Assembly (NCBI GenBank): GCA_016872555.1
Contig: VGZO01000006.1
Coordinates: 59,711-123,710, forward strand
Direction of reading: 5' to 3'
Length of the DNA: 64,000 bases
Origin: Planctomycetota bacterium
GTDB taxonomy: Bacteria > Planctomycetota > Planctomycetia > Pirellulales > UBA1268
Made by a program: the position numbers and the translations under genes. Shown here piece after piece: positions 47,227 through 58,354 of this stretch (within the stretch, counting starts at the first letter, position 1; every line of letters begins with the position of its first letter). Below the pieces are notes generated by a model. It was not told the DNA's origin. It searched no databases and was given only the letters and a program-made list of their open reading frames with translations.

Positions 47227-48816
47227 TCACGCGGGGCCGCGCGCCAACCGGGCCACGCGTGCCACGGTCGCGGCGTCGAACGCCCCGGTGGCCGCCACCG
47301 GCACGACACTCGCACGCCCGCCGGTAGCGGATGCGAGCTCGGCGGCGGTGATCGGTTCGCGGCTCGCGACCTGCGCGGCGACCACCGCGGCGGTGGCGTC
47401 GGACGGGTCGGCCCCGCCCCGCGCCCTGACGCGCTCGGCGGCGACGGCCGCCGGGAGGTCGAGGTCGAGCCATACCAGCTCCACGGCACCGCGCGCCGCG
47501 ACCGCCGCGATCGTGGCGCGCTGCTCGCGGCGCAGGCAGGCGGCGTCGATCACGACGCTCCACCCCGCCGCCAGCGCGGCGCCGGAGAGATCGGCGAGCC
47601 GCTCGTAGGTGCGGCGCGTCGTCGCCGCCGAATACAGCAGGGCGACGGCGGTGGCGTCGGCCGGTCGGTCGGTCGGGGCGAGGCCGGCGCCGCGCTTCCG
47701 CTCGACGTCGCTGCGCAGGCGGATCGCCCCCAGCGCCGCGGCGACCGCCGCGGCGAGCGTCGACTTGCCGCTCCCCGAGATCCCGCAGGTGGCCACGAGG
47801 AGCGGTCGCGTCGGGGTGGCGAGGCGCTCGGCGAGGGCCAGGTAGCGCACGCAGTCGTCGTCGGCCGTGGGCCCGGAGCCAGCCGTCTGGCCGGCGCGGA
47901 TCGCCGCCACCGCCGCCCGGACGATCGCCCGGTAGACGAGGTACATCGGCAGGATCGGCAGCGCGGCATGGTCGTCGGCGGCCTCGACCCACGCGCTGAC
48001 GACCGTCGCGGCGAGGTCGGGGCGGCCGCGCGCGTGGAGATCCATCGCCAGGAAGGCGACGTCGTTGGCGACGTCGATCCAGCGCAGCGACTCGTTGAAC
48101 TCGATCCCGTCGAAGGCCACGATCCGCCCCCGGTGGCGCACGAGATTGCCGAGGTGGAGGTCGCCATGGCACTCGCGGACCCGGCCGGCTCCGCGCCGCG
48201 CCGCGAGACGCTCGCCGTGCCGTGCCAGTTGGCCGTCGATCCAGGTGGCGAGCCCCCGCGCGCGGTCGGCGAGATCGGGGCGGTGCTCGACCAGCTGATC
48301 GAGGTTGAGGTGGACGATCGCCCGGAACGTCGCGGCCGTCCCCCACGGCGCGGCGGTGTCGGCGACGAGCAGATCGCGCTGCACAGCGGCAACGTCTCCG
48401 GCCAGCGTCGCGCAATCCTCGGGCGAGAGCTCGCCGCGCTCGAGGACGTGGTCGAGACGGTCGCGCTCGGGAAACTGCTCGAGGCAGACCGCCCACTCGA
48501 TCGGCTCACCGGCGCCACCGATCGTGGCGGCCTCGGGCGGGCCGGCGATCGGCACGGCCCCGAGGTACAGCTCGGGAGCGAAGCGGCCGTTGAGCCGCAC
48601 CTCCTCGCGGCAGAAGGCGCGGCGGCGCTCGAGCGAGGTGAAGTCGAGAAACCCGAGGTCGACGGGCTTCTTCACCTTGTAGGCCCGCGCGCCGGTGAGG
48701 AACACCCAGGAGATGTGGGTTTCGACGAGGTGCAGGTCGCTCACCGGGTGCGGGTAGGCCGCCGGCTCGAGCAGGCGACGGACGAGCGGCGGGGCGGCAG
48801 CGGGCGGGAGATCCAT
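47227..48816 (-). CDS. Aminoglycoside-phosphotransferase-like / AAA-kinase fusion protein
   Basis: The 529-residue protein has two domains. The N-terminal half (about 30-330) is an APH-like kinase fold with ECHGDLHLGNLVRH, matching the HGDLHxxN catalytic loop, and FDGIEFNESLRWIDVANDVAF. The C-terminal half (about 345-529) is a P-loop kinase beginning TCGISGSGKSTLAAAVAAALG, with the Arg-rich LRSDVERKRGAGL. Proteins of this arrangement are widespread but the substrate is unknown. The start at 48816 is the first Met with homology. Confidence 0.85.
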   Translation of the reverse strand: MDLPPAAAPPLVRRLLEPAAYPHPVSDLHLVETHISWVFLTGARAYKVKKPVDLGFLDFTSLERRRAFCREEVRLNGRFAPELYLGAVPIAGPPEAATIGGAGEPIEWAVCLEQFPERDRLDHVLERGELSPEDCATLAGDVAAVQRDLLVADTAAPWGTAATFRAIVHLNLDQLVEHRPDLADRARGLATWIDGQLARHGERLAARRGAGRVRECHGDLHLGNLVRHRGRIVAFDGIEFNESLRWIDVANDVAFLAMDLHARGRPDLAATVVSAWVEAADDHAALPILPMYLVYRAIVRAAVAAIRAGQTAGSGPTADDDCVRYLALAERLATPTRPLLVATCGISGSGKSTLAAAVAAALGAIRLRSDVERKRGAGLAPTDRPADATAVALLYSAATTRRTYERLADLSGAALAAGWSVVIDAACLRREQRATIAAVAARGAVELVWLDLDLPAAVAAERVRARGGADPSDATAAVVAAQVASREPITAAELASATGGRASVVPVAATGAFDAATVARVARLARGPA

Positions 48817-48854
48817 GGCCCAAGTATCGCCGCCCCGGCACTGCCGGCGAGTGG

Positions 48855-50744
48855 CTACTTCGCCGCCGGCCGTGGAACCTCTTCGACAGGTGGGCGGGCC
48901 GGTGCCGCCGGCAGCATCATCAGCACCTCGGGGAGCGCGTCGCGGCCGAGCGACGTGTCGGCGGCGCGGAGGTCGCTGTCGGCCCGCCAATATTCCTGGC
49001 GGGCGAGGATCTCGAGGATCTGGGCGTCGAACTTGGTCTGCTCGCGGAGCGTGACGCGGAGGATGTCGCTGCGGCCGAGGCGGAGTTGCTCGCGCTCGGC
49101 CCGGGCGACGAGCGTGGCGAGCTCGGCTTGGCGCGTCGCCTGCTTGTAAAATTCGTAGGCGCGTTCGAGGAGCGAATAGGCGTCTTGGATCTCGGCGCGG
49201 ACGTTGTCCTCGGCATACTCCAGCTGGCGGTCGATCTGGATCAATTGCGAATCGATCGTCTCGAGGCGGCCGCGGGCGTCGCGCCGCTGGGCCGGCAGTT
49301 GGAATACGAGCGACGCCTGGAGCACCTGGCGGTCGAGCCCGTCAGGCCCCGAGAGCGGGCTCTTGCCGAAGGCGGCGTCCTGGTTGCCGACGAGCTGGCT
49401 GTCGATCACCGGCAGCATCTGGTTGGCGGCGAAGCGGCGCTCGACGACCAGCTTCTCGCGCTGGAGCGCGAGGCGGGCGAATTCGGGGCGCTCGGCGAGC
49501 GCCCGGGAGAGGGCCGTCTCGAACGTCGTCCGGTCGGGGGGCACGGGCTTGGCCATCGGGCGGATCCGCCGGCGCGACGCGAGTAGCGGTCGGCCCGACG
49601 CATCGCGGAAGAACAGCGACAGGTCGATCGTCGCCTGCTGCAGCGAGCGGTCGGCCTTGACGACCAAGCCGTTGCGGAGAGCGACGTTTTGCTGGTTGTC
49701 GATCCGTTCGATGTTCGCCGCGGCGCCGCGCTGGACGCGCGTCTCGAGCGCGGAATCGCGCTCGACGGCCAGATCGACCAGCTCCTCGGTGGCCTCGAGC
49801 CGCTCGCCGTTGCCGAGCCAGTTCCAGTAGGTGCGGGCGGAGGCGCGCAGGTAGTCGAGCCGCGTGCGCTCGATGACCGGCTCGGCCAGCGCGATGTCGA
49901 GCCGGGCTTGGTCGCGCGTGGCGCGCGGGCGGTCGATGTCGCGGTTGCGGGCCAACGGCATCGTGACCCCGCCGCGCCATTCGCCGCCGGTGGCGGTCTT
50001 CTGGGCGAGGTTGTAGGTGGGGAAGTCGCCGTAGCCGTTGCGGAAGCCGCCGAAGGCGCTGATGCCTGCCGTGGGGAAGAGCTGCGTCAAGCCGAAATCG
50101 GAGCGGTAGTTCTCGTAGGTGCCCGGAGCCAGGGCGTTGCCCGACATGCCGATCCCGGTGTCGAAGGCTCCCATCGCGGTGGTCAATCGCCCGGCGGCCA
50201 CCCCGCGCTCGCGTTCGATCGCCTGGAGCAGCGGATAGTGGAGTTGCACGCTCTCCAGGACGTCGGAGAGGAGCAGGGGAGCGTCGCGCTCGTCGACGTC
50301 GCCGCCGTAGTACTCCGACGGTTTGGCAGGAGGTGGGAGGAGCGTGTCGGGATCGCGCGGGTTGCCGGGTGGGAGCGCTCCCGACGTGGCGGCCCGCTCG
50401 AGCGCGGTGTCGTCGTCATCGTCGTCGGCCGGTCGGGGCAGCGGCGCCGGATCGCGCTGGGGCTCCGCGTTCGGGTCGGTCGGGGCGTCGACGTCGTCGC
50501 GCCGGGGCGTCAGGCCCTCCGGAGCCTCGTCGGCGAGTCGGAGAAACGACGCACTGACCACCGACTCGAGGCGCAGTTCGGCCTCGGGACCTGGCGCGAG
50601 AGGTGCGACCCTTCCTGCCGGCCGGAAGCGGCGCGGCTCGGTGGCTTCGGCGATCCCGCCGTGCACGACGAGGGCGACAACGAGCGCGGCCAGCGGCCTG
50701 CGCGACCGGACACCGCCCCGCGTTGGCGGCCGTTTGGCCGTCAG
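48855..50744 (-). CDS. TolC-family outer membrane efflux protein
   Basis: The 629-residue protein has a signal-like segment (RPLAALVVALVVHGGIAEA), an acidic, Pro-rich stretch (about 65-140), and the outer membrane factor body of helical repeats (about 150-600) with NLAQKTATGGEWRG and QEYWRADSDLRAAD. It would form the trunk-like export channel. No ATG begins it in a sensible place. The most likely start is CTG at 50742-50744, whose bases overlap the TGA of the HlyD gene (CTGA), which would couple translation. GTG downstream would cut into the signal. Confidence 0.85.
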   Translation of the reverse strand: MTAKRPPTRGGVRSRRPLAALVVALVVHGGIAEATEPRRFRPAGRVAPLAPGPEAELRLESVVSASFLRLADEAPEGLTPRRDDVDAPTDPNAEPQRDPAPLPRPADDDDDDTALERAATSGALPPGNPRDPDTLLPPPAKPSEYYGGDVDERDAPLLLSDVLESVQLHYPLLQAIERERGVAAGRLTTAMGAFDTGIGMSGNALAPGTYENYRSDFGLTQLFPTAGISAFGGFRNGYGDFPTYNLAQKTATGGEWRGGVTMPLARNRDIDRPRATRDQARLDIALAEPVIERTRLDYLRASARTYWNWLGNGERLEATEELVDLAVERDSALETRVQRGAAANIERIDNQQNVALRNGLVVKADRSLQQATIDLSLFFRDASGRPLLASRRRIRPMAKPVPPDRTTFETALSRALAERPEFARLALQREKLVVERRFAANQMLPVIDSQLVGNQDAAFGKSPLSGPDGLDRQVLQASLVFQLPAQRRDARGRLETIDSQLIQIDRQLEYAEDNVRAEIQDAYSLLERAYEFYKQATRQAELATLVARAEREQLRLGRSDILRVTLREQTKFDAQILEILARQEYWRADSDLRAADTSLGRDALPEVLMMLPAAPARPPVEEVPRPAAK

Positions 50745-52153
50745 GTGACCTTGATCTTGGGCGCCTTCGACTTGCCGTCCTTGTCCTTTTCTTTGGCCTT
50801 GTCCATGGCCTTGGGGCCGGGGGCGAGGACCGGCGGGAAGCCGTTGAGCCTTCGCCAGATCTCGTAGCCGAGCGTGACCCGGTTGAGGAACACCCACCCG
50901 ACGGCCTGGTTGCCCTGCCGGAGGAAGTTCTCGTCCGGCCAGGCATCGCCCTGGAGCTTTGCTTCTGGTTCGACGAGCACCCTGAACTGGCCGCCACCGC
51001 CGCTGGCCGGATCGACCTGACGGACCCGGCCGCCGAACGTGCCGATCGCCAATTCCGGCCAGCCCGAGAACTGCAACGCCGGCCAGCCCTCGAACTGCAG
51101 CCGGACGTGCGGCATCTGTTTCTTCTGCTCGGCATAGGCGAGCACGATCGGCGCGTCGATGCCGTCGAGAAACAGCTCGATGACGCGGTCGGTGGTGTCG
51201 GGAACGATCGTACACAGCTCGTCGCCTTCCTTGACGTACTGCCCGCCCTGACCGACGTTGGCCGACACCCGGTAGACGATCCCGTCGCACGGGGCGACGA
51301 CGTTCCGGGCCTTGAATCGCTCGATACGGTTGTCGATGTCCTGGATCTCGCGCTCGATCGAAAACAGGTTTTGCTCGCTCTTCCTCAGGTTGCTGCGGGC
51401 CACGGCGATCGCCGACAGGCCGGCGGCATCGGCCTGGAGGAGGAGGGCCTCCTGGGTGAGGAGGGCCGCCTCGGCCCGCTGCAGCTCGGCCTGGGCCTTG
51501 TCGGTGTCGGTCGTCGCCCGGTCGGCCCGCATCCGGGCCTCGTCGCGCGACAGCCGGCTCTCGAGGCCGCCGAATTGCGGGTTGTTGAACAGGTCGTCAA
51601 ACATCTCGAAGCGGTCGCGCTCGAAGTTCCTGGCGAACTCGGTGTTCGCCAGGGACTGCTTGGAGACGTCGATCGCCTTGCGTGCCGCTTCACGGTTGGC
51701 CTCCGCCGCCTTGACCGCCGCGGCCCGGGCGCCTTCCTGGGCCCGCGCCGCCGCGGTGTTCTCCACCACCTCCTCGCGGGCCGCCTCCAGCCGCTCGCCC
51801 AGGAACCTCCGCTGGGCCTCGAGTCTCCCCTCCAAGTCGGGGTCGTTGTCTTCGATATCGACAACCGGATCGTTCATCTTGACCCGGCTTCCCTCGACCA
51901 CGTGCCAGGTCGTGACCTGCCCCGAAACGCGGGCTGTGAGGACCTGCATCCGCTCCACCGGCGCGTAGGCGATCACGGTTCCCTGGCACATGACGGTCTG
52001 TTGCCAGGGGACGAAGGCGAGGACAATTGGGGTGACGAGGAAGATGAGGAGAAGGAGAACAGCGACGAAGCGCACGCCCGACGGCGTCGCGGCCCGTGAC
52101 AAGGCCGAGCCCGGTTGGCCGCTGCTGCGGGGGTGTGCAGGTGTCACGCCCAT
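50741..52153 (-). CDS. HlyD-family membrane fusion protein
   Basis: The 470-residue protein has one membrane segment (VRFVAVLLLLIFLVTPIVLAFV, about 28-49), a biotinyl-lipoyl-like half (QTVMCQGTVIAYAPVERMQV), a long coiled-coil region (about 105-290, EGRLEAQRRFLGERL to SEQNLFSIEREI), and the second lipoyl half with PCDGIVYRVSANVG. The tail is lysine-rich. It would bridge the inner-membrane transporter and TolC. It overlaps the ABC gene by 10 bases and the TolC gene by 4. Confidence 0.9.
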   Translation of the reverse strand: MGVTPAHPRSSGQPGSALSRAATPSGVRFVAVLLLLIFLVTPIVLAFVPWQQTVMCQGTVIAYAPVERMQVLTARVSGQVTTWHVVEGSRVKMNDPVVDIEDNDPDLEGRLEAQRRFLGERLEAAREEVVENTAAARAQEGARAAAVKAAEANREAARKAIDVSKQSLANTEFARNFERDRFEMFDDLFNNPQFGGLESRLSRDEARMRADRATTDTDKAQAELQRAEAALLTQEALLLQADAAGLSAIAVARSNLRKSEQNLFSIEREIQDIDNRIERFKARNVVAPCDGIVYRVSANVGQGGQYVKEGDELCTIVPDTTDRVIELFLDGIDAPIVLAYAEQKKQMPHVRLQFEGWPALQFSGWPELAIGTFGGRVRQVDPASGGGGQFRVLVEPEAKLQGDAWPDENFLRQGNQAVGWVFLNRVTLGYEIWRRLNGFPPVLAPGPKAMDKAKEKDKDGKSKAPKIKVT

Positions 52154-53778
52154 TCCACGGCCTCGTCGCAGCGTCGGCGGATGTCGTCACGGGCCGTGAC
52201 GATGACGAGCGTCCAGGGGGCCTGGCGGTCGAACAGCGACTCGATCAATTGCGGGCAGTCGGCGATGTCGAGGGCGTCGAGCATCCCGTTGATGAGCAGC
52301 AGCCGTGGGCGTCCGACGATGGCCCGGGCGATCGACAGCCGGGAAATGGCGTTGGCCGACAGCGGGCGGCCGTCGGCGGCCAGCGCCGTGCCGACCCCCC
52401 GGGGCAGGCGCGCGACGTCGTCGGCGAGACCGACCATCTCCAGCGCCCGACGCACGTCGACGGCCGAAATGTCGCTGCGGCCGACGCGGACGTTCTCGGC
52501 GACCGTGTCGGCGAACGTCTCCGATTGCCCGACGTAGGCCACCTGGAGACGGGTCGCGGTCCGGTCGAGCGACCGGGCGTCGAGCCCGTCGAATTCGAGC
52601 AAACCCTGGTCGGGCAGGCGGAGCAGGGCGAGCGTCTCCAGCAGCGTGGTCTTGCCGCTGCCGGACGGTCCGTAGACGGCGATCCGCCGCCCCGGCGGCA
52701 CCTCGAGCCGGAGCGTCTTGCCCGGGCGGCTCACCACCTCGGCGACAACGGCCATCGGCCGCTCGGTCGCCGGCAGCAGTTCGCCGCCAGAGTGCTCCAG
52801 CGGCAGCGTGTCGATGACGCCGAGCTTGTCGAGCGCCGCCTGGAGGTCGTAGAAGGTCTCGATGTACTTGCCGATCTTCGAGATCGCCGACAGCACCAGC
52901 GCCACCATCAGCTCGCCGGCGACGAGCTGGCCGAGCGTCAGCTGGCGGTTGATCACCAGCCATCCGCCGAGGCCGAGAAGCACCGTGCTGCCGATCGCGT
53001 CGAGGAGCAGGGCGAACAGGTTCTGCCGCCAGACGACGGAGAAGTGGCGCCGCCGCGCCTGCACGTAGGCGTCGGCGAGCTCGTCGGCACGGGCGTGGGC
53101 GAGGTCGCCGCCGCGGCCGAAGCGGAACGTGTGGGGGCACTTGGCGAGCTCCTCGAGCCAGGCCGCCACGTCGAACTTGGCGTAGCTCTCGGCGATGCTC
53201 GTCCGCACCCCGCCGCGTCCCAGGATCGTGAGCATGAAGATCACGAGGATCGCCGTGACGACCGCGAACGTCAGCAGCGTGGGGTGGTAGAAGGCGAGTA
53301 CCATCAGGCCGACCACCGAGATCATCAGGATCCCGATCCCCTCGACCAGCAGCGAGGCGACTGCCTTTTGCACCGACGAGACCTCGAAGAACCGGTTGAC
53401 GATATCGGTCGGGTTGCGGCCGTCGAAGGCGGCGATCTCGGCCCGGGCGAAGTGGTCGGCGAAGGCATCGGCGGTGCGCACGAAGATCCGCCGCTGCAGG
53501 CACTCGGCGACCAGCAGCTGCAGCGAGCGCAGCGCCGCCGAGAGGAGCAGGAAGCCGAGCATCACCCCCGAGAGCACGAGCACCGGCCAGAGCTGGAAGC
53601 CGAAGCTGACGGTCGTCACCAGTTGCTCGATCGCGACCGGCGTCACGATCGAGAGGATACCGACGGCGGTGGCGAACAGAGCCAGCGTGAGGCAATCGGA
53701 GCGCTCGAGGCGCAGCAGCACAGCGAGCCGCTGCCAGCTCGACACGGAGGCCGCGCCGCTGCCATGGTCACCGCCCAT
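52144..53778 (-). CDS. ABC transporter membrane/ATP-binding protein with degenerate ATPase motifs
   Basis: The 544-residue protein has an N-terminal membrane domain (about 25-320, five or six helices) and a C-terminal nucleotide-binding domain. Walker A is intact (GPSGSGKTT, about 365-373). The signature LSGGQ reads LSANAISRL (about 473), Walker B reads LLLINGMLDALD so both the Asp and catalytic Glu are replaced, and the H-loop reads VTARDD without His. ATP binding may remain but hydrolysis is unlikely. In type I exporters these residues are essential, so the complex may use another energy source or act as a scaffold. Confidence 0.88.
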   Translation of the reverse strand: MGGDHGSGAASVSSWQRLAVLLRLERSDCLTLALFATAVGILSIVTPVAIEQLVTTVSFGFQLWPVLVLSGVMLGFLLLSAALRSLQLLVAECLQRRIFVRTADAFADHFARAEIAAFDGRNPTDIVNRFFEVSSVQKAVASLLVEGIGILMISVVGLMVLAFYHPTLLTFAVVTAILVIFMLTILGRGGVRTSIAESYAKFDVAAWLEELAKCPHTFRFGRGGDLAHARADELADAYVQARRRHFSVVWRQNLFALLLDAIGSTVLLGLGGWLVINRQLTLGQLVAGELMVALVLSAISKIGKYIETFYDLQAALDKLGVIDTLPLEHSGGELLPATERPMAVVAEVVSRPGKTLRLEVPPGRRIAVYGPSGSGKTTLLETLALLRLPDQGLLEFDGLDARSLDRTATRLQVAYVGQSETFADTVAENVRVGRSDISAVDVRRALEMVGLADDVARLPRGVGTALAADGRPLSANAISRLSIARAIVGRPRLLLINGMLDALDIADCPQLIESLFDRQAPWTLVIVTARDDIRRRCDEAVEWA

Positions 53779-53791
53779 GCCGAGCCGTCAC

Positions 53792-54172
53792 CTACGCTTC
53801 GGGGAGCAGGGGGGTGCGCTCGTCGCGGGCCGGGGCGGAAGCGGTGCCGACGGGTGCCGGCCGCGGCAGCCGTCGGGCCCGTTCGATTTCGCGGCCGACC
53901 GACTGGCCGATCCGCTGGCAGGCACGCTCGATGGCCATCTCCCAGTCGGAATCGACGACCAGCGCGAAAACGTCACCCGCGTTTCGCACCCGGGCCCGGA
54001 TCCGGCACGACTTGTCGATGCCCGCGCCGAGATCGCGACCGCCATGGAGGAGCACCACGACGCTGCTCACGGCGCGACGGTGCCGGCCGAGCGCCAGGCG
54101 CAGGCGGACGTCGATCGAGTCACGGAGCCGGTCAGCCCCGGGAAGCCCGTCGTGAAGTAATTCCCACTCCAT
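53792..54172 (-). CDS. HPF/RaiA-like ribosome-associated protein
   Basis: The 126-residue protein starts after GGAGG and matches the planctomycete HPF/RaiA-like pattern: LRLALGRHRRAVSSVVVLLHG, DKSCRIRARVRNAGDVFALVVDSDWEMAIERACQRI, then a Pro/Arg-rich tail. HPF proteins bind the ribosome and silence translation in stationary phase. The gene lies 13 bases before the ABC gene and is probably the first gene of that operon. The combination is unexpected, and it could also be a paralogue with another role. Confidence 0.78.
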   Translation of the reverse strand: MEWELLHDGLPGADRLRDSIDVRLRLALGRHRRAVSSVVVLLHGGRDLGAGIDKSCRIRARVRNAGDVFALVVDSDWEMAIERACQRIGQSVGREIERARRLPRPAPVGTASAPARDERTPLLPEA

Positions 54173-54409
54173 CGCCACCTCCGCCACTCGGTCGATACCC
54201 GAACCCGCCTTCTCTTCTCATCGTCATTGGTAGGCAGGCAGCTTCCATTGGACAAATAGAATGTTTTGGTTCGGGATATTGAAAAAATCTTTTTCCTGCA
54301 GTGAACTTCGTTATTTTCGTGGGTACAGGCCGATCCTGCCCATCTGTTGAGGGGGGTCTGGGGAGGCCGCTGTGGCGGGTTTGGCGCGCGGGGAAGGGAG
54401 CGAACCGGG
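54173..54409. promoter_or_regulatory. AT-rich divergent regulatory region
   Basis: Between the RaiA-like gene and the NhaR-like gene lies a 237-base region whose middle (54226-54300) is far richer in A+T than the rest of the window. It contains a direct repeat CATTGG at 54225-54230 and 54246-54251, and the palindrome GAAAAA-ATC-TTTTTC at 54281-54295. LysR-type regulators usually bind near their own divergent promoter, so this may be an autoregulatory site. No -35/-10 pair is clear. Confidence 0.5.
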
Positions 54410-55312
54410 ATGGAATGGCTCAACTACCACCACCTCCTCTATTTCTGGATGACCGCCCGGGAAGGGAGCATCACGCAAGCCTGCCGCAGGCTCCATCTCA
54501 CCCAGCCCACCGTGAGCGGCCAGATCCGGGCCCTCGAGCGGTCCGTCCAGGCGAAGCTTTTCGAGCGCTCCGGGCGGTCGCTGGTGCTGACCGAGACCGG
54601 CACCGTCGTGTTCCGCTACGCCGAGGAGATCTTCGCGCTCGGCCGCGAGCTTCAAGATGCCCTCGCCGACCGCCCGACGGGGCGTGCGATGCGGTTCTCG
54701 GTCGGTGTCGCCGACGCCCTCCCCAAGGTTCTCGTCCACCGCCTCCTCGAGCCGGCGCTCCACCTCGACGCCGACATCCGGGTGACGTGCATCGACGGCG
54801 AGCCGGAGCGCCTCCTGGCAAGGCTGGCGCTCCACGAGCTCGATCTCGTGGTCACCGACTATCCCGCCAGCCCGCGGGTCGGCGCCAAGACGTTCAGCCA
54901 CTTGCTCGGCGATTGCGGCGTCTCCTTCCTCGCCACCGAGACCCTGGCCCGCCAATACAGGCGCGGGTTTCCGCAGTCGCTCACCGGCGCGCCGCTGCTC
55001 CTTCCGGTGCCCGGCACGACACTCCGCCGGTCGCTCGACCAGTGGTTCGACGAGGAGGAAATCCGCCCGCGGATCCGCGGTGAGATCGCCGACAGCGGGC
55101 TGCTCAAGGCGTTCGCCGCGAGCGGCGCCGGCATCTTCGCCACCCCTTCGGCGGTCGAGGAGGAAGTGGCCCAGATGTACGGCGTGACCGTCGTCGGACG
55201 GGAGGAATCGCTTCGCGAGCGGTTCTACGCGATCTCGGTCGAAAAACGCCTCAAGCATCCGGCCGTCGTGGCGATCTCGCAGCAAGCGCGGCGGCAGGTG
55301 TTTCGCAGCTGA
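54410..55312 (+). CDS. LysR-type transcriptional regulator, NhaR-like
   Basis: The 300-residue protein begins MEWLNYHHLLYFWMTAREGS, the helix-turn-helix opening typical of NhaR, followed by ACRRLHLTQPTVSGQIRALE and the periplasmic-binding-like effector domain. E. coli NhaR activates the Na+/H+ antiporter gene nhaA, but no antiporter is beside it here. The ATG at 54410 follows AAGGGAG. The divergent operon on the other side (RaiA-like, ABC, HlyD, TolC) is a plausible target. Confidence 0.88.
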   Translation: MEWLNYHHLLYFWMTAREGSITQACRRLHLTQPTVSGQIRALERSVQAKLFERSGRSLVLTETGTVVFRYAEEIFALGRELQDALADRPTGRAMRFSVGVADALPKVLVHRLLEPALHLDADIRVTCIDGEPERLLARLALHELDLVVTDYPASPRVGAKTFSHLLGDCGVSFLATETLARQYRRGFPQSLTGAPLLLPVPGTTLRRSLDQWFDEEEIRPRIRGEIADSGLLKAFAASGAGIFATPSAVEEEVAQMYGVTVVGREESLRERFYAISVEKRLKHPAVVAISQQARRQVFRS

Positions 55313-55324
55313 CGGGCCGGACCG

Positions 55325-57019
55325 TCAGGGAGCGGCGGGGAGGAGCCGGGCGAGCGCCGCGCGGACGGCGGCCGCCGGCAGGGCGTGGGTCGTCGTCCGG
55401 TCGAAGCGGGCGATCGACAGGCCCACCGCCCGCCCGTCGAGACCGACGACGACGCCGCCGCAGGCGTCGGCGGGGAGCACCGAGTCGTGGCTGAAGGCGG
55501 CCGGGAAGCCCTGCCGACGCTCGCTCACCGGACCACTGAAGGCCAGATCGCGGCGCCGGGGACGGTCCGACTGGGCGTCGGCCATCGGCACGAGCGTCGC
55601 CTCGGTCTGGCGCCATAGCCCTTCGCGGCAGTAGTCGATCGTGACGCGGTCACCGATCGCACCGGCCCTGATCGCCGTCGCGAGATCCTCGGCGGTCAGC
55701 GTGGGCAAGCCGTCGAGGGCGACGATCCGGTCGCCGCGCCGCAACCCCGCGGCGCGGGCCGGGCCGCTCGGGCTGACGCGCTTGAGGACCGTGCCGGTAA
55801 CCGCCGGATCGTCGTCGAGCGTGATCCCCAGGGCGGGCGTGTCGTCGTCATCGCCGACGTAGCGCGTCCGCGCCGGAATCGGCCGCGTCCCCACGCTCAC
55901 CGCGCCGACCGCCAGCGGCCGCCGCGCCGGGCCAGGCGTCACGACGAAGCGCCCTACCTCGGGCTCGCCGTCGGCCCAGCGAATCGGCTCGAGACCGGTG
56001 GCCTCGACCTTGACCAGCACCAGATCGAGCGCCTCGTCGGCGGCGACGAGCGTGGCGTCGAGCGAGCGCCCGCCGACGCGGCAGCGGATCTCCCCGGGCA
56101 GTTCGCTGCGCTTGGTGAGGATCCACCCGTCGGCACCGACGACCACGCCGAGCGCCACGCGGCGGTCGTCGTCGAGGATCTCGACGACCGACAACGCCGC
56201 CTCGGCCGCGATCGGCGCGAAGCGGTCGCGGATCGCCGGGTGGCGGAGGCTCTCGTCGCGGAAGTCCGACTGCAGCGCCGGCGACGTCGGCTTGCCGTCG
56301 GCCCGCTTGCCGCCGCGCAGTTCGTCCCACTGCCGGCGGTAGACCTCGATCGGGACGCTGAAGTTGTCGCGGACGTCGGTGGCGATGCTCGTGCCGATCC
56401 CCACCAGCCGGCCGTCGAGATCGACCAGCGGCCCCCCCGAGTCACCCGGCTGGAGCGTGCAGTCGGTGACCAGCGAGAAGCGCTGGAAACGCTCGTCGCG
56501 GAGCACGCCACGGAGCCGTCCGAGGCGCACCGGCGCCGGCCGCCCCGCGACGATCCCGTCGGAGTGGCCGGCCGCGAGGCACCAGTCGCCGATCGACAGC
56601 GACGTCGAATCGCCAAGCTCCACATGTGGCCACGGGCCCGGCTCGCTGATCTGCAGCATCCCGGCGTCGGTCGCCCGGTCGTGGCCGAGCGCCGTGGCGC
56701 GCGTGACGCGGCCATCGGAGAGGAGCACGGCGAAGTCACCGTCGAAGCCCTCCATCGCATGGGCGACGGTGAGGATCAGCCCGTCGGGGGAGACGATCAC
56801 GCCGCTGGCCACGCCATGCTCGATCAAGCCGCCGTCGGCGCTGCCGAGGCCGACGGTGGCCGCGAGCATCCGCCGGGCGGCGGCCACGCTCCGCACTTCC
56901 TCGGCGAGAAACGGCGCGGCGCCACGCTCCTGAGCATGCGCCTTTCCGGACTGCACGAGCGCGACGGCCAGGACCACCGCGAGCCCCGCGCCACGCAGGA
57001 CGGCGTTCGATCGGCTCAT
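55325..57019 (-). CDS. Trypsin-like serine protease with PDZ domain (DegP-like, atypical)
   Basis: The 564-residue protein has a signal peptide (LAVVLAVALVQSGKAHA) and a complete N-terminal chymotrypsin-like domain: His in VAHAMEG, Asp in ATDAGML, Ser in GDSGGPLV (around residue 195). A second protease-like module (about 260-370, GVVVGADGWILTKRSELPG) lacks the triad. Then comes a PDZ domain (about 375-470, GLRRGDRIVALDGLPTL), and a C-terminal half-domain with ACGGVVVGLDGRAVGLS. It starts at ATGA shared with the upstream gene's stop. Confidence 0.86.
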   Translation of the reverse strand: MSRSNAVLRGAGLAVVLAVALVQSGKAHAQERGAAPFLAEEVRSVAAARRMLAATVGLGSADGGLIEHGVASGVIVSPDGLILTVAHAMEGFDGDFAVLLSDGRVTRATALGHDRATDAGMLQISEPGPWPHVELGDSTSLSIGDWCLAAGHSDGIVAGRPAPVRLGRLRGVLRDERFQRFSLVTDCTLQPGDSGGPLVDLDGRLVGIGTSIATDVRDNFSVPIEVYRRQWDELRGGKRADGKPTSPALQSDFRDESLRHPAIRDRFAPIAAEAALSVVEILDDDRRVALGVVVGADGWILTKRSELPGEIRCRVGGRSLDATLVAADEALDLVLVKVEATGLEPIRWADGEPEVGRFVVTPGPARRPLAVGAVSVGTRPIPARTRYVGDDDDTPALGITLDDDPAVTGTVLKRVSPSGPARAAGLRRGDRIVALDGLPTLTAEDLATAIRAGAIGDRVTIDYCREGLWRQTEATLVPMADAQSDRPRRRDLAFSGPVSERRQGFPAAFSHDSVLPADACGGVVVGLDGRAVGLSIARFDRTTTHALPAAAVRAALARLLPAAP

Positions 57020-58125
57020 CGGGTCGGCTCCTCGGCGAGCGCCTCGCGGTAGGCGCGCAGCCGGCGCCGAAACGCCCGCTTCTCCGACTTGTCGCCCCGA
57101 TCGGCGACGAGCTCGACCGCCCGTTCCTGGTGCGTCACGGCCGCCGCGCGGTCGCCGGCGAGGAAGTGCGCATGGGCCAGCGTGTCGAGGGCGAACGGAT
57201 CGGCGTGGTCGAGGAGGTCGTCGGCGCGGGTCGCGAGGCGGAGCGCGACGGCGATCGCGGCCGGCGTCGCCCCGGGCAGGTCGAGGATCCGCTGGGCGAC
57301 GTCGTTGAGGAGCTCGGCGTCGTGATCGGCCGGGCCATCGAGGAGGTCGGCCGCCGCGGCGCAGCCGGCCTCGAAATCGCCTTTCTGGAACAGGAGCACC
57401 TCGACCTTCATCCCGGCGGCCCGCCCCGCGAGGCGCGGCTGGGCGGCGGCCATCGCGCGAATCGTGTCGAGCGCCTCGTCCCAGCGCCCCCGTTCGACCG
57501 CCGTGAACGCCGCCTCCTCGAGGAGCCGGGCCCTCTTCGCGGCGGCCGCCTCGGCGGCGGCGTCGAACCCCCCCGAGATCATCCGCTCGACGACGTCGTC
57601 GAGCCCGTCGAGCGGGTGGCCGATCCAGGCGATCGTTCCCGCGCCGTCGACGACGAACGACGTCGGCACGCCCGCCTCGCCGGCCGGCACCATCCACCCC
57701 TTCCACGACACCCCCTCCGGCTCCTCGTCGCGCCGCCGCCGCGGCTGTTCGTCGTAGCGGTCGACGGCGATCCGGACGCCGAGCGGTGGTTCGAGATCGG
57801 CAAGCAAGCCGGTGGCCTCTTCCTCCCGCTCGGGAGGGTCGGTGACGATCAGGACGAACTCCACCCCGCGGCGTTTGAACCGGCCGGCGAGATCGGCGAC
57901 GTGGGGGAGCGACTCGAGGCTCGAGGCGCTGCGCGTGTCGATGAAGGTGAGGGCGTAGATGCGGCCCGGTTCGAAGCGGCCGATCGGCTGGCCGCCGATC
58001 CAACGGCTCGCCGCCAGCACCGGCGCCGGGTCGCCGACGGCGAGCGACCCCTCGTCGGCCGCGGCGGCCCGCGCTCCGACCAGCAGCCCGACGACCACAC
58101 CGAGAGCCGCGAGCCTGCCATGCAT
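57016..58125 (-). CDS. TlpA-like thioredoxin-fold protein with TPR-type C-terminus, no active-site cysteines
   Basis: The 369-residue protein has a signal peptide (LAALGVVVGLLVGARAAAA) and a thioredoxin-like domain (about 30-180: LAVGDPAPVLAASRWIGGQPI, VPTSFVVDGAGTIAWIGHPLDG). The position where CxxC normally sits reads IDTRSASSLE, so the protein cannot do thiol-disulfide exchange at that site. The C-terminal half (about 190-365) has TPR-like helices. Its stop overlaps the protease start (ATGA), so the two are translationally coupled and probably act together in the periplasm. Confidence 0.82.
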   Translation of the reverse strand: MHGRLAALGVVVGLLVGARAAAADEGSLAVGDPAPVLAASRWIGGQPIGRFEPGRIYALTFIDTRSASSLESLPHVADLAGRFKRRGVEFVLIVTDPPEREEEATGLLADLEPPLGVRIAVDRYDEQPRRRRDEEPEGVSWKGWMVPAGEAGVPTSFVVDGAGTIAWIGHPLDGLDDVVERMISGGFDAAAEAAAAKRARLLEEAAFTAVERGRWDEALDTIRAMAAAQPRLAGRAAGMKVEVLLFQKGDFEAGCAAAADLLDGPADHDAELLNDVAQRILDLPGATPAAIAVALRLATRADDLLDHADPFALDTLAHAHFLAGDRAAAVTHQERAVELVADRGDKSEKRAFRRRLRAYREALAEEPTR

Positions 58126-58354
58126 CGGATGACCTGCCAATCCCTGGGCCGAGCGGTCGCACCTCGCGACGCTCTCGACTCTACCCCTCCTCCGCCAGCC
58201 GCTCAACGCGTCGACTGCCACGGCGGCTATTGCCGCTGCGCACACTCCTCCCCGCAACTCTCCCGGCGGAAAACCGTTTCCTGGTCGATCGGGCAGCCTG
58301 GTTCGATTCGATAGGAAGGCAGCGCCGAGTCCGCCCCCCTCGGCAGGAGCTCCG

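Follow-up and report, generated by a model that had tools for sequence, protein, structure and literature searches.

The window analysed here, a 64,000-nucleotide stretch of a planctomycete genome (own assembly, G000), carries an operon of four genes that run head to tail on the minus strand and encode a RaiA-like protein (P0001), an ATP-binding cassette (ABC) half-exporter (P0002), a HlyD-type adaptor (P0003) and a TolC-family channel (P0004). The ATP site of P0002 is degenerate, and comparable losses were found in relatives from three phyla that keep the same ABC, HlyD and TolC genes together. From these sequence comparisons we infer, with moderate confidence, a type I secretion-like tripartite envelope complex that would serve as a conduit and would no longer depend on ATP hydrolysis. 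ABC exporters and type I secretion are generally defined by the ATP hydrolysis that powers them. In the subfamily described here, nearly intact motors stand beside dead ones. They share the membrane signature and, in the cases checked, the same HlyD and TolC partners, and form a natural series for asking if ATP is indispensable, by what else transport may be driven and in which order the motor was dismantled.

An ABC half-exporter with a degenerate ATP site

The type I secretion gene set of ABC exporter, HlyD adaptor and TolC channel is present together at the locus, with matches to ABC_membrane, ABC_tran, HlyD_3 and OEP all above the Pfam cut-offs. P0002 combines a membrane domain (residues ~1–340) and a nucleotide-binding domain (NBD; residues ~345–544) in one chain with an exporter fold, the architecture of an ABCB-like half-transporter, and the top structural match of its model was HlyB in the HlyB/HlyD complex (Foldseek E 7e-24). 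At the places where canonical exporters carry Walker A, the Q-loop, LSGGQ, LLLLDEATS and the H-loop His, P0002 reads GPSGSGKTT, VGQSE, LSANA, LLLINGMLD and VTARDD, respectively, and the full Walker B stretch reads RLLLINGMLDALD. Walker A thus conforms to GxxGxGK[ST] and the Q-loop Gln is kept; NG occupies the Walker B DE pair, LSANA the place of LSGGQ, and Ala the position of the H-loop His. Judged by its sequence, P0002 lacks what an active ABC ATPase has at Walker B (Asp-Glu), at the H-loop (His) and at the signature (LSGGQ), and with these catalytic residues absent the locus would not count as type I secretion energised by ABC ATP hydrolysis. The original prediction had recognised these motif states, the Q-loop apart, and had also placed the genes, their order and their overlaps correctly (10 nt between the ABC and HlyD genes, 4 nt between the HlyD and TolC genes).

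Motif loss across the family

A genome scan recovered 25 planctomycete relatives (identity 43–98%). An ABC match was present in 39 of the 72 genomes of the window’s family, in 86 of 197 genomes of the order (~40%) and in 30 of 294 genomes of a phylum-wide sample. In a set of 86 ABC proteins used for motif counts, the Walker B Glu was absent from 82 (Gly occupies the position in 58 and Glu in 4), the second Gly of the signature was kept in nine and the H-loop His in no more than three, and LSxxQ-like signatures persisted in part of the set. GK[ST] of Walker A was kept in 69 proteins, including all members of the window’s genus, and lost in 17, including a whole genus (g7) of the window’s own family (L190–L193, L204, L205 and L116). 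The ABC, HlyD and TolC genes were adjacent in nearly every planctomycete neighbourhood examined. The recurrence of these losses in dozens of full-length homologues, in which the gene order is conserved as well, makes them more than chance.

The core of the set is the ABC, HlyD and TolC genes. In the neighbourhoods examined no substrate gene recurred beside the operon and, a LysR gene excepted, no widely recurring neighbour was found beyond the trio. Most relatives outside the window’s family carry ~165 extra N-terminal residues, in which no similarity to C39 domains was detected (no match in Pfam or among PDB sequences).

Purifying selection and a membrane-domain signature

Reading frames were open, and pairwise ratios of nonsynonymous to synonymous substitutions (dN/dS) ranged over 0.02–0.22 for the membrane domain and 0.05–0.28 for the NBD, indicating that purifying selection acts on both. 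Within the window’s genus (NBD dN/dS 0.05–0.14) the NBD was under no less constraint than the membrane domain, a pattern also shown by two canonical control exporters from these genomes. In clades without Walker A, the NBD tended to be the more relaxed half. When the subfamily was compared with 40 canonical exporters, ten positions of the membrane domain (N128, Q137, K138, H165, S198, K201, W207, Q252, A287 and D311) showed 97–100% conservation within the subfamily, with mostly other residues in the canonical proteins, and position 289, in the middle of the hydrophobic stretch of transmembrane segment 6 (TM6), was E in 95% of the subfamily compared to V, I or L in canonical exporters. The membrane domain, TM6 stretch included, is the best conserved part of the protein, and its signature is near-invariant across the three phyla while the ATP-site residues drift. 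Decay of a single gene was ruled out by the family-wide conservation and the low dN/dS. The original prediction of a changed function rather than decay therefore holds as far as one-gene decay is concerned, given the family-fixed loss, the open frames, the low dN/dS and the membrane signature.

Near-intact sisters and repeated loss

With the most complete member from the Gemmataceae as query, the class yielded 30 loci, four of them repeating earlier ones. In these sister loci, from other families of the Planctomycetia, the Walker B Glu was present in 28 of 30 and the H-loop His in 25 of 30. GxxGxGK[ST] and LSLGQ-like signatures were kept too, and the membrane signature was almost unchanged; the L246 protein is one such near-intact homologue. 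Their Q-loop is one residue short and has another residue, usually K or R, in place of its Gln; most of the family shows this as well. Since near-complete motifs occur in sisters that bear the signature, the loss of the ATPase is derived. The original prediction had taken homologues with complete ATPase motifs as a point against it; nearly complete ones do exist in the family as a whole, but none in the window’s own clade. Its further claim that all hydrolysis residues had gone together does not survive the comparison, since Glu, His and Walker A are all retained in sister lineages and the minimum number of changes on the tree differs between the three.

A tree of the membrane domain required at least seven changes of state for the Glu, at least four for the His and at least ten for Walker A; two of the Glu changes come from Riemerella and Croceicoccus, where an isolated E stands without the Asp. 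Built with fewer sisters, a full-length tree showed one change for the Glu and nine for Walker A. The membrane-domain tree, which took in more of the near-intact sisters, was preferred over the single Glu change, but its deep forks are weak. Walker A clearly changed many times on both trees, and on the membrane-domain tree the loss of the ATPase was repeated, an uncertain number of times. The membrane signature and the Q-loop change probably came first, with catalysis becoming dispensable later.

The trio in Sphingomonadales and Bacteroidota

A protein search of plasmids identified members beyond the Planctomycetota, and the gene order ABC–HlyD–TolC was kept in all three groups. The trio was found in Croceicoccus, Novosphingobium (N. 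aromaticivorans DSM 12444 among them), Sphingobium and Sphingomonas (Sphingomonadales) and in Aureibacter and Riemerella (Bacteroidota); in Persicobacter the ABC protein is present in records without gene annotation. The versions from both groups are still more decayed at the ATP site: neither Walker A nor the Walker B Asp remains in the sphingomonad proteins, and Aureibacter has lost Walker A with the trio intact. Public plasmid annotations call the product of the ABC gene merely an ABC transporter ATP-binding protein or a transmembrane-domain protein, so that the loss of the ATPase is easily overlooked.

Two of these plasmid loci show distinct surroundings. On plasmid pHAL16 of Sphingobium sp. 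KCTC 72723 (L226:1362-9069), the trio follows a DUF2309 gene, of the DabA type for inorganic carbon uptake, and genes for a LysR protein and a carbonic anhydrase lie close by. In a plasmid record of Riemerella anatipestifer (L233:4947-9301) it lies between thymidine kinase/alanine racemase and murB genes, and the ABC protein there reads LLKEP at Walker B and lacks LSGGQ.

Comparison with known systems

The HlyB/HlyD/TolC system (TIGR01846; PDB 8DCK) has the same gene trio, and HlyB was both the best NCBIfam and the best Foldseek match of P0002. The score of P0002 against TIGR01846 (146.7 bits) is, however, far below the cut-off of 725.55, which places it outside the HlyB subfamily. The window trio further differs in its dead ATP site, in having no recognised linked substrate gene and in the absence of the N-terminal extension, which is missing from the window’s family and in its relatives not detectably C39-like. 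In TM287/288, TmrAB, BmrCD and TAP the same catalytic residues are replaced as in P0002, but these exporters retain one canonical site, as reviewed degenerate exporters do (PMC7756269), whereas in P0002 degeneration affects Walker B, the H-loop and the signature alike, and no partner is linked. The SecA_DEAD-associated type I-like loci of Planctomycetes resemble the window trio as planctomycete HlyD/TolC-type parts without a working ABC motor, but they encode SecA_DEAD, M50 and GAF proteins and no ABC protein (PMC4452313); the window trio includes one, and identity of the two systems was rejected. A literature search, in which few subscription papers were covered, found no earlier description of the operon or of exporters with both sites degenerate.

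Proposed function and alternatives

In the reading favoured here, the ABC membrane domain, the HlyD adaptor and the TolC channel would together form an envelope conduit. The ABC proteins form a subfamily of their own among the HlyB-like half-exporters, marked out by the conserved membrane-domain signature, in which the coupling of NBD and membrane domain was probably altered early (a Q-loop one residue shorter that has mostly lost its Gln). The window’s entire family is among several lineages in which the catalytic Glu, the H-loop His, LSGGQ and sometimes Walker A would then have been lost, the membrane domain, adaptor and channel meanwhile staying under selection. The ABC protein would most likely serve as a dimeric inner-membrane platform or conduit that is opened by the substrate, the adaptor or an ion gradient, with the NBD kept as a structural clamp or, where Walker A survives, as a nucleotide-binding gate. 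Several points weigh against this proposal. With Walker A kept in 69 of the 86 proteins nucleotide binding may still matter, some ATP turnover may proceed without the classical Glu and His, and an intact half-transporter encoded at a distance could act as partner. No conserved energising neighbour was found beside the trio in the neighbourhoods examined, and the deep forks of the trees are weakly supported, leaving the number of losses uncertain.

The nearest rival, though on balance unlikely, is a passive conduit gated by nucleotide, in which Walker A binds ATP and binding and release without hydrolysis open and close the path; the gating of the CFTR channel by ATP binding offers a loose parallel. 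The retention of GK[ST] in most of the 86 proteins and throughout the window’s genus agrees with such a gate, as does the constraint on the NBD in that genus, no weaker than that on the membrane domain, as in the canonical controls. Walker A was nevertheless lost repeatedly with the trio intact (genus g7, the sphingomonads and Aureibacter), and for that reason nucleotide binding appears dispensable in some members. Ranked next, and improbable, is a hidden heterodimer, in which the dead half would pair with an intact half-transporter encoded elsewhere that hydrolyses ATP, as in TM287/288 and TAP. The window genome encodes several canonical exporters, and six ABC_membrane proteins above the cut-off were found in it; the degenerate halves of known heterodimers lack the same catalytic residues (PMC7756269), and some of the family still has LSxxQ-like signatures. 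One and the same chain is, however, degenerate in both signature and Walker B, so that pairing restores no canonical site and the site of the partner would also be incomplete, and in many lineages the decay extends to Walker A. No linked intact ABC partner recurs in the neighbourhoods examined. A HlyB-type partner elsewhere was likewise rejected, since one HlyD of the P0003 kind and the six ABC_membrane proteins were all that the genome yielded; neither a HlyB-type motor nor a second P0003-like adaptor was found in it.

The third-ranked rival, which we consider less probable again, makes the ABC protein an assembly scaffold or sensor only, with HlyD and TolC working with another inner-membrane partner. 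The motor is lost, and strictly conserved residues in the cytoplasmic helix extensions (K201, D311, Q137 and K138) could fix one conformation, but it is the membrane domain with its TM6 stretch that is best conserved, and no alternative inner-membrane partner recurs beside the ABC gene. A pseudogene-like relic in the course of being lost is hardly credible: ATP-site residues vary freely and 33 of the 72 family genomes, many of them incomplete, have no match, yet the frames are open, dN/dS is low, the membrane signature is near-invariant and the trio occurs in three phyla. A bolder extension of the conduit proposal, speculative and on balance unlikely, is that ABC-fold exporters across phyla repeatedly exchanged ATP hydrolysis for another driving force, with polar residues (E289 in TM6, H165 and K201/D311) coupling a proton or ion gradient, or the folding of the substrate outside, to HlyD–TolC export. 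If true, an ABC exporter would have turned into a secondary or ratchet transporter.

The RaiA-like gene and the divergent LysR gene

P0001 scored 15.9 bits against Pfam S30AE (PF02482), below the cut-off of 23.7, and co-located homologues at L148, L184 and L016 scored above it. Its predicted fold (beta-alpha-beta-beta-beta-alpha; predicted local distance difference test score 83) had HPF/pY structures as best PDB matches (E 1e-6). By modelled fold and sequence relationship P0001 belongs to the HPF/RaiA superfamily; it has the fold in common with the HPF/RaiA/pY ribosome hibernation factors but is divergent from them, and a role in hibernation is putative. An ordinary HPF/S30AE protein (61 bits) is encoded elsewhere in the same genome (G000:C3:26472-26750), and the operon copy is therefore a divergent paralogue. 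Among 74 loci with neighbourhood counts, 14 had the RaiA-like gene ahead of the ABC gene on its upstream side, 12 of these with the divergent LysR gene as well; the latter was a divergent neighbour in 24. The RaiA-like gene at the head of the operon, which the original prediction had singled out as an oddity, is thus real, but it is an optional accessory, usually beside a divergent LysR gene, and not part of the core. The paralogue perhaps ties the operon to slow growth or stress.

The divergent LysR protein, presumably NhaR-like, may regulate the operon. The 21-nt intergenic element was identical in three of the four genus members, with one mismatch in the fourth, and its core, ACAAATAG, recurs at some other loci; the element fits the T-N11-A pattern of a putative LysR operator. 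One genome (G083) carries two diverged copies of the operon (L159 and L160). Both include a RaiA-like gene and are accompanied by a divergent LysR gene; the ABC frame of the L160 copy is short (498 aa), with one in-frame TGA reported.

Layout of the locus

The positions of the operon genes, motifs and regulatory features are given in Table 1. The RaiA-like and ABC genes are separated by 13 nt. The 4-nt overlap with the HlyD stop implies a CTG start for the TolC gene; in the homologues L009 and L011 an ATGA stands at the equivalent place.

Table 1. Positions of operon genes, ATP-site motifs and regulatory features in the window.
Feature	Position	Strand	Remarks
HPF/RaiA-fold protein P0001	53792..54172	-	126 aa; first gene of the operon
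ABC half-exporter P0002	52144..53778	-	544 aa; degenerate ATP site
Walker A GPSGSGKTT	52645..52671	-	P0002 residues 370-378; kept
Degenerate signature RPLSANAISRLSIARA	52321..52368	-	P0002 residues 471-486
Degenerate Walker B RPRLLLINGMLDALD	52267..52311	-	P0002 residues 490-504; NG replacing DE
H-loop region TLVIVTARDD	52183..52212	-	P0002 residues 523-532; no His
HlyD-type periplasmic adaptor P0003	50741..52153	-	470 aa
TolC-family outer-membrane factor P0004	48855..~50744	-	probable CTG start
Divergent LysR-family regulator gene	54410..55312	+	
Intergenic element CATTGGACAAATAGAATGTTT	54246..54266	not assigned	candidate LysR operator

Directly downstream of the TolC gene, a frame at 47227-48990 (minus strand) encodes a protein whose C-terminus carries an AAA_33 kinase domain and whose long N-terminal half has no match in Pfam. 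On the other side, a long frame of tentative boundaries at 55325-58162 (minus strand) contains two trypsin-like stretches and a PDZ domain, and overlaps a second long frame at 57016-58257.

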